Shown here: one piece after another, positions 18,911-20,840 of the stretch | Layout: every line of letters begins with the position of its first letter | Position numbering within the stretch: position 1 is the first letter of the stretch | Assembly (NCBI GenBank): GCA_002687905.1 | Contig: NZBM01000001.1 | Coordinates: 1 to 34,950, forward strand | From: a bacterium | GTDB lineage: Bacteria; Patescibacteriota; Minisyncoccia; Phycocordibacterales; JABMNX01 | Length of the DNA: 34,950 nt | Direction: 5' to 3' | Translations under genes and position numbers: made by a program | Notes under the pieces: generated by a model | What the model saw: the letters and a program-made list of their open reading frames with translations, nothing else | Database searches by the model: none | Told to the model about the DNA's origin: nothing

Positions 18911-19594
18911 TTAGATTTCGTATATTACGTCTTTTCTTTCAACCACAACTTTCCAGCCCAACCTTTTTGCTTGTTTGTAGAGTTTTTGGTTCGGATTAAA
19001 GCAAATTGGCTTATCAACCAACTCAAGAAAAGGTATGTCCCCTTCAGTGTCGCCCACACCAATTGAGTCTTTGAGTGTGAGACCATCTTTCTCAATGGCG
19101 CGCCTTACAATATTTGCCTTATTCTCTATTAAGTGTTCATCAATAATCTTTCCGGTAAATCTGTCTTGCGGACCAAGTTCATATATTCGCCCATAGACTT
19201 TATTAAATCCTAAGCTTCTACAAAAACTATCAAGTATCGCTTTTGGAGATTGAGACACAGCTAAAAGATAGAAATTTTTACTCTTTAATTCTTTAATAAG
19301 ATCGCGTGTATAACGATAGACGTGCTTTCTCTGCTCGCTTACAACTTCTTTTGCCAAATCACTGAAATCTCCGTAGTGAACTCCTTTTATATTTTTCATA
19401 AAAGAAGCTGCAAGAGAGTAAATATATGCCTCATAGTCACCCTCTCTCTCAACCCATTTTCTATAATCTCTTTCGTATTCTTTTCTGGCTTTCTCAGGAA
19501 AAATCCCTCTTTCAATAAGCATCTCTGTAAGCTCAATTACGAGACTCGAGCGAAATATTGTTCCATCAACATCAAAAATAGCTGCTTTTTTCAT
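18911..19594 (-). CDS. HAD-IB family hydrolase (SerB-like phosphatase)
   Basis: AIFDVDGTIFRSS motif I; VSQSPKAIL; GVGDTEGDIPFLELVDKPICFNPN. Confidence 0.9.
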   Translation of the reverse strand: MKKAAIFDVDGTIFRSSLVIELTEMLIERGIFPEKARKEYERDYRKWVEREGDYEAYIYSLAASFMKNIKGVHYGDFSDLAKEVVSEQRKHVYRYTRDLIKELKSKNFYLLAVSQSPKAILDSFCRSLGFNKVYGRIYELGPQDRFTGKIIDEHLIENKANIVRRAIEKDGLTLKDSIGVGDTEGDIPFLELVDKPICFNPNQKLYKQAKRLGWKVVVERKDVIYEI

Positions 19595-19611
19595 ATAGAA
19601 ATCCTAGCATA

Positions 19612-19799
19612 AAAGAAAGAACCGACGCTCGGGACGTCGGTTTGGCGTCGGTCCGTGGAGATTGGGCCAGTTTTGCCTTCACAGGATTTCACCGTGGTGA
19701 CCTTCGCGCTCTTCTCGAAGAAGCTTGCAATTCGGGACCACACAGACGATGACCTCTTGAGAGTAAGGTGCCCTCTGCCCAATATCCCCACGAACAGAC
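19612..19799 (-). ncRNA. Candidate ~190-nt structured ncRNA, 6S-RNA-like architecture
   Basis: Minus strand: promoter TTGACA-17 nt-TATTAT; 5'/3' closing stem GUUCGUGGGGAUAUUGGGC / GCCCAAUCUCCACGGAC; apical hairpin CUUCU-UCG-AGAAG; terminator ACCGACG-TCCCGAG-CGTCGGT-TCTTTCTTTT. Confidence 0.6.
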
Positions 19800-19805
19800 A
19801 CATGG

Positions 19806-19834
19806 ATAATAACTCAAGGTGTACAGCATGTCAA
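19806..19834 (-). promoter_or_regulatory. Near-consensus sigma70 promoter of the ncRNA candidate
   Basis: Minus strand TTGACA (19829-19834), 17 nt spacer, TATTAT (19806-19811). Confidence 0.7.
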
Positions 19835-19836
19835 CT

Positions 19837-20790
19837 CTAAATCTCTCGATTTATAATCGCCTTTATCTCATCAACTGGAATAGAAAAACTTATATTCTCA
19901 CTCCCGCGTACGGTTGCTACATTTATTCCAATCACATTTCCATTAAGACCAGAAAGTGGGCCGCCGGAGTTTCCGGGATTAATCGCGGCATCCGTCTGTA
20001 TTACTCCGTTAAGTGGAACCAAGCCGCTATCGCTAAGTGCTTCGAGTTGTCTATTTAGCCCTGAAATTATTCCAACAGAAACAGAGTTACTAAACTCTCC
20101 AAGTGCATTTCCAATTGCAAAGACCGACTGCCCTAATTTAAGAGAGTCCGAGTTTCCAAGAGAAACTTTAGAAGAGCTTCCACTGATTTTTATTATCGCA
20201 AAGTCAATATCAGAGTCTTTATAAATTACTTGAGCGCCTTTTGTAGAACCGTCAGAGAGTATTACTGTGTAATCTGCTTCATTATCATTAACAACATGCC
20301 TGTTTGTTGCGATGTGTCCGTCTCTTGTTATAAAAAATCCTGTTCCTGCGCCAACCTGCTTTCTTTCAGTTCCTCTCTCAACAATTCTTGGAACTCTTAT
20401 ATCAAAATCCTTAAAGAAAGGGTCATCCCCAAATGGATTTACGTGTACTATTTCCATTTTTGGTACATCCTTGCTTATCACAATTGAAACAACAGAAGGA
20501 GCGATACTTGCTACCGCCGCAGTAAGTAAATCATCTTGTGATTTTTCCCGAAGCTCAGCTCTTCTTTCTAGCTCATCGCGCGCCTCAGATGCCTCATCGC
20601 GCACAAGGCCAATTCTCTCTTCCAAATCTGAAAGTCTCTCCTTTAGGGCGACTATCTCCTCGCTCTCAGGTGATATACTAAAACCAAAGAAAAAGCCTGC
20701 TCCGACGAGAAGCGTAATAAATAAGCTAATTATTGTGTAATAAATCTGATTCACAGCCAAAGTATACACGATTGCGTAAAGATACTGCAA
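19837..20790 (-). CDS. HtrA/DegP-like trypsin-family serine protease, membrane-anchored, no PDZ domain
   Basis: GHIATNRHVV, DIDFAIIKIS, QTDAAINPGNSGGPLSGLNGNVIGIN catalytic triad; ORF ends right after the protease domain. Confidence 0.92.
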   Translation of the reverse strand: MQYLYAIVYTLAVNQIYYTIISLFITLLVGAGFFFGFSISPESEEIVALKERLSDLEERIGLVRDEASEARDELERRAELREKSQDDLLTAAVASIAPSVVSIVISKDVPKMEIVHVNPFGDDPFFKDFDIRVPRIVERGTERKQVGAGTGFFITRDGHIATNRHVVNDNEADYTVILSDGSTKGAQVIYKDSDIDFAIIKISGSSSKVSLGNSDSLKLGQSVFAIGNALGEFSNSVSVGIISGLNRQLEALSDSGLVPLNGVIQTDAAINPGNSGGPLSGLNGNVIGINVATVRGSENISFSIPVDEIKAIINREI

Positions 20791-20795
20791 AAATA

Positions 20796-20839
20796 ACCAA
20801 TCTCCACTTTTACTCCATGGAGTAAAAGTGGAGATTGGT
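20796..20839 (-). terminator. 44-bp perfect palindrome, probable nth terminator
   Basis: ACCAATCTCCACTTTTACTCCATGGAGTAAAAGTGGAGATTGGT; followed on the minus strand by TATTTTTG. Confidence 0.75.
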
Positions 20840-20840
20840 C

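Follow-up and report, generated by a model that had tools for sequence, protein, structure and literature searches.

Many bacteria carry two 6S RNAs. Bacillus has two of them (PMC7726162), and the Actinobacteria possess Ms1, a 6S-shaped RNA that binds core RNA polymerase and is linked to HAD-IB hydrolase genes (PMC9130861). The length of Ms1 is about 300 nt and it has extra terminal hairpins, its BLAST similarity between genera can be nil, and in Streptomyces the HAD gene lies on its 5′ flank (PMC9130861). No reports on the regulatory RNAs of Parcubacteria, which have very small genomes, were found in the literature searched.

The window analysed here is the entire 34,950-base contig G000:C1 of a genome (G000) that totals 591,505 bases over 18 contigs and whose nearest named relatives are Kaiserbacteria and Parcubacteria MAGs; the organism is tiny, uncultured and Kaiserbacteria-like. 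An unannotated RNA gene with 6S-like architecture had been predicted on the minus strand between the HAD and HtrA-like genes, and the promoter, closing stem, structured middle and terminator of such a unit were all found in the sequence.

The candidate RNA gene and its neighbours

The features of the region, in the direction of transcription, are the following.

19837..20790, minus strand: HtrA/Do-like trypsin-fold protease gene, the upstream neighbour of the candidate RNA
19806..19834, minus strand: sigma-70-type promoter (TTGACA 19834-19829, 17-nt spacer, TATTAT 19811-19806)
19591..19803, minus strand: 70-aa ORF over the candidate RNA, judged spurious (no similarity to the 61-aa ORF of the related genome G001)
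19611..19799, minus strand: candidate transcript of ~185-190 nt, its start placed from the −10 position and its end from the terminator
19777..19792, minus strand: closing stem, 5′ strand, CGUGGGGAU-(AU bulge)-UGGGC (from the fold; 0/2000 shuffles)
19749..19766, minus strand: motif UUACU.CUC(4)GAGGU.CAU on the 5′ side of the middle region, common to G001 (hand alignment A6)
19689..19752, minus strand: apical hairpin domain of the minimum-energy fold, with its base formed by UCAUCGU (19752-19746) and ACGGUGA (19695-19689)
19670..19674, minus strand: AAAAC, directly before the 3′ closing strand, common to G001 (alignment)
19654..19667, minus strand: closing stem, 3′ strand, GCCCA-AUCUCCACG (from the fold; 0/2000 shuffles)
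19611..19642, minus strand: intrinsic terminator, a 9-bp hairpin AACCGACGUCCCGAGCGUCGGUU and T-rich tail (from the sequence)
19601..19611, minus strand: TATGCTAGGAT, putative extended −10 of a separate leaderless HAD promoter, the same in G001
18911..19594, minus strand: HAD-IB family hydrolase gene (TIGR01490), the downstream neighbour of the candidate RNA

The promoter begins 2 nt past the htrA stop codon. It is the near-consensus TTGACA-N17-TATTAT of the original prediction, and sites with a match of 11/12 or better number only 23 in the genome, both strands counted. The terminator foreseen at the other end of the transcript was likewise confirmed, with its hairpin at 19642-19620 and its tail reaching 19611; the HAD-IB gene starts 17 nt past this tail.

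The strands quoted earlier for a long closing stem lie at 19795-19777 (5′) and 19667-19651 (3′), and the fold contains such a stem, CGUGGGGAU.(AU).UGGGC / GCCCA.AUCUCCACG, of 14 bp with a 2-nt bulge in the 5′ strand. The end-to-end pairing of the RNA amounts to −26.1 kcal/mol, a value reached by none of 2000 dinucleotide shuffles. A loose genome-wide scan, in which many windows were tried, gave 22 hits with an upstream duplex below −20 kcal/mol from 348 terminator-like sites, so that the closing stem alone is notable, not decisive. Folding of the whole transcript yields −71.2 kcal/mol (z −2.4), and the body without the terminator has a z of only −1.65; the body has a GC content of 0.54, compared with a genome value of 0.41, which places it in the top 2.9% of windows. 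The apical hairpin that had been described is present in the minimum-energy fold. The less-paired internal region is open in the centroid structure, as had been proposed, but is partly filled by pairing in the minimum-energy fold of the window copy.

Between htrA and nth lies a palindrome with perfect 20-bp arms (20795-20840). It belongs to a repeat family with diverged copies on further contigs (L145 18706-18764, L160 7427-7477 and L157 18301-18335), and shares the 11-mer CCAATCTCCAC with the closing stem of the candidate RNA. A derivation of the candidate from this repeat was considered and rejected, as the candidate is single copy and shows no similarity to the repeat beyond the 11-mer. On other contigs of the genome, a structured element occurs in two similar copies with GACGCAAAGG...CCTTTGCGTC arms near tRNA genes (L154 4863 and 5148, on G000:C17), and G000:C13 (L150), which carries archaeal 16S and 23S rRNA genes, is probably a contaminant contig within the MAG.

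Relationship to 6S RNA

A resemblance to 6S RNA (ssrS) had been suggested for the candidate. RF00013, the Rfam 6S model, gave no match to it, also in a search of all Rfam to E 10. Applied to 288 genomes of the phylum, RF00013 found 24 loci, none of them in the candidate's order or class. A Patescibacteria 6S model (R2) was built from nine of these loci; among the 15 held-out loci, 12 were recovered at 30–67 bits and one at 18.9 bits, and two weak ones were missed. Even with every filter off, R2 gave the candidate's strand no more than 0.2 bits. The GGGA...ACCCACCU core, which flanks the bubble in Patescibacteria 6S RNAs and is present in the 6S hits of both phylum and order, is absent from the candidate by inspection.

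Of 98 relatives, 49 gave an R2 match at E ≤ 1, for more than 20 with E ≤ 0.001, and many of the matches carry the full core GGGAGNCC...GGNCACCCACCU together with promoter boxes and terminators. The 6S RNAs of Paceibacteria missed by RF00013 comprise L106-L135 besides loci in G000, G001 and G003, and in this family the 6S gene sits downstream of ndk. The best R2 site in G000 (G000:C6:13584-13684, corresponding to L136 4585-4685) is on the minus strand, directly downstream of ndk. By itself it scores weakly with R2 (14.4 bits, E 0.78). The site carries the 6S core, and aligns with the syntenic 6S RNA of G001 (G001:C3:12881-12988; R2 28.5 bits, E 2.5e-4) at z 34 and with that of G003 (G003:C2:6192-6326) at z 17. 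Judged from these sequence comparisons, the site is this organism's 6S RNA.

Aligned pairwise with the organism's own 6S RNA, the candidate scores at chance or close to it (z 1.5 at best, otherwise −1.2 to −0.1). The candidate is ruled out as a 6S RNA by the Rfam and R2 results, by the absence of the core and by the presence of the organism's own 6S RNA on another contig. The likeness is architectural only: the two agree in outline in length class, in a closing stem with a 5′ bulge, in a weakly paired middle (partly filled in the candidate's minimum-energy fold), in the apical hairpin and in having a single-gene promoter and terminator, whereas the candidate is without the GGGA-GNCC...GGNC-A-CCCACCU core and is matched by neither RF00013 nor the phylum model.

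SRP RNA was also considered, as RF00169 found none in G000 (nor in 59 relatives). The candidate contains no SRP S-domain motif and has no SRP Rfam match. The SRP54/FtsY GTPase domain was not found in G000 either, for which reason this identity was rejected; matches across 21 genomes numbered just three, all of them marginal and partial. Loss of SRP in Parcubacteria has already been reported (PMC4508563).

Comparison with the second genome of the genus

The one other genome of the genus in the comparison set is the MAG JADHUY010000008 (G001), and the comparison rests on two sequences. Ahead of its HAD orthologue (78% identity) lies a unit of like design: a TATTAT box, a closing stem of 16 bp whose 5′ strand has a 1-nt bulge, an apical hairpin and a terminator. 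From stem to stem the span is exactly 137 nt in both genomes. The promoter of the G001 unit is weak (8/12). The body of the G001 RNA has a fold z of −5.0 with the middle bubble open, and its closing duplex, as in G000, beats 2000 of 2000 shuffles.

A hand alignment (A6) contains 20 aligned pairs, chosen by hand, all of which are standard in both genomes; seven differ on both sides, three on one side, and none is broken. At the base of the apical hairpin, this alignment keeps seven pairs in G001, three of them via changes on both sides. The interiors of the two RNAs align at z 3.0 (0/150 shuffles) when sequence and structure are combined, either alone being weak (z 1.7). Plain local alignment of the two RNAs is at chance level (z 0.8), BLAST makes no link between them, and a covariance model built from G001 alone (R3) fails to recover the window copy, so that homology of the units rests on synteny and plan. 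MAFFT alignments of the divergent RNAs were poor, and the sequences used for R2 and for a two-sequence model (R1) were trimmed or padded for model building only. The 6S RNA of the genus shows good conservation between these two genomes, with the z of 34 given above.

Because the body fold in the window is weak and the loose scan returned 22 hits from its terminator-like sites, the comparison with G001 carries much of the weight. As read from the two sequences, the unit, its span, its plan and the pairing of its closing stem are retained despite sequence change, nearly all differences in that stem leaving the pairing intact, and by place and plan the two units are orthologous and very fast evolving.

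Beyond these two genomes the unit was not recovered. A DNA search of 98 relatives with the candidate RNA matched only itself, R1 found only its two training loci among 60 relatives and the sister genera, and no third homologue was found in GTDB r220 (same-genus copy and other HAD loci). Among the loci upstream of HAD across the order, no other shows this unit, and the sister genera are without it beside HAD. The candidate RNA gene may be genus-restricted, or diverged beyond detection elsewhere; it may also be dispensable, since sister genera do without it at this place. A Vogelbacteria genome (L063) has a further structured element with a long stem in the intergenic region about 290 nt upstream of HAD; judged by eye, its sequence is dissimilar.

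Interpretation of the candidate RNA

The candidate is probably, if by no means certainly, an independent small structured RNA gene that is not 6S and is restricted, as far as seen, to one Kaiserbacteria-like genus. The proposal of an unannotated non-coding RNA gene is supported by the promoter, the stem, the terminator, the syntenic unit of G001, an overlapping ORF that is not conserved and a promoter of HAD's own. Transcription would begin at the sigma-70 promoter after htrA and end at the RNA's own intrinsic terminator, before the HAD-IB gene, and the folded RNA would consist of a long closing stem, bulged on its 5′ side, a middle with weak pairing and an apical hairpin. The persistence of shape and span through sequence change makes it most likely that the RNA would act through its fold, by binding a protein, and not through seed pairing with mRNAs. 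RNA polymerase, on the analogy of 6S and Ms1, would be the most concrete candidate partner.

This analogy could be taken further, with the candidate as a second, strongly diverged 6S-type or Ms1-like RNA acting as a polymerase decoy, its stem and open middle mimicking melted promoter DNA. Architecture and size would fit, the 5′ bulge of the closing stem is as in Patescibacteria 6S RNAs, and a second 6S RNA would not be unusual among bacteria. The resemblance to Ms1 consists of a 6S-like plan without recognisable sequence similarity, cross-genus detection mainly by synteny and a HAD-IB neighbour, here of the TIGR01490 family. Such an RNA is nevertheless unlikely given the lack of any R2 score, the near-chance alignment with the organism's own 6S RNA and the missing GGGA...ACCCACCU core. 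Ms1 is, moreover, ~300 nt long, compared with ~185 nt here, and has HAD on its 5′ flank in Streptomyces, where the candidate has it on the 3′ flank; the linkage of RNA and HAD is also absent at the other loci of the order. Since HAD lies on the opposite flank and the order does not retain the linkage, the Ms1–HAD parallel is a lead only. That a HAD-IB-linked, polymerase-binding decoy parallel to Ms1 might have arisen, or become unrecognisable through divergence, in a ~0.6-Mb genome that has a canonical 6S RNA as well would be quite improbable.

The order of promoter, structured RNA, intrinsic terminator and gene is also the classical layout of an attenuator, and the candidate could be read as a cis-acting leader of HAD (a riboswitch or attenuator) with conditional read-through at the terminator; an AGGA 7 nt before the HAD ATG could then serve as a ribosome-binding site. 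In both genomes, however, TATGCTAGGAT stands after the terminator, with its last T 6 nt before the HAD ATG, and a TANNNT box is found 5–8 nt before the HAD start at 14 of 26 loci of the order, usually at exactly 6 nt (shuffles, mean 3.0 and maximum 10 in 500). The position of TATGCTAGGAT and the box across the order argue that HAD has its own leaderless promoter past the terminator, and so would not depend on the promoter of a leader. Relatives without the candidate RNA retain HAD with its TANNNT box. Aptamers normally conserve their sequence, whereas the candidate does not and shows no conserved aptamer-like core. A leader is thus distinctly unlikely, though some conditional read-through may occur. 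The −10 box is conserved about 6 nt before the HAD-IB start codon at the order's HAD loci (L057-L097), which points to leaderless transcription.

The absence of any dedicated RNA gene, with a GC-rich terminator and spacer folding by chance, would be in keeping with the z of the window body, the lack of sequence conservation and the comparable upstream duplexes of the loose scan. It is made very improbable by the recurrence of the plan and the 137-nt span in G001, the stronger fold there, the closing stems that no shuffle equalled in either genome and the near-consensus promoter.

A small protein gene of 70 aa, translationally coupled to HAD, can be dismissed as extremely improbable: the ORFs of both genomes do end at the HAD ATG (ATGA overlap), but their amino-acid similarity is confined to a shared promoter-encoded tail (97/1000 shuffles score as high in the comparison with the 61-aa ORF at the same place in G001), the ATG lies 2 nt past the −10 hexamer and ahead of any likely transcript start, there is no Pfam match, and the frame, as originally described, runs through the terminator and is without a ribosome-binding site. 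Orthologues conserving this frame had been named as the observation that would speak against an RNA gene; in G001 the frame is not conserved.

The case warns against calling an RNA 6S by outline alone. The 6S RNA itself occurs widely in an order for which Rfam reports none, being detected by R2 in about half of the relatives, and because R2 finds it where Rfam does not, its apparent absence from such genomes reflects a detection limit and not loss. As for the candidate, that so small a genome (0.6 Mb) keeps a dedicated gene for a structured RNA suggests that this gene is useful to the cell.
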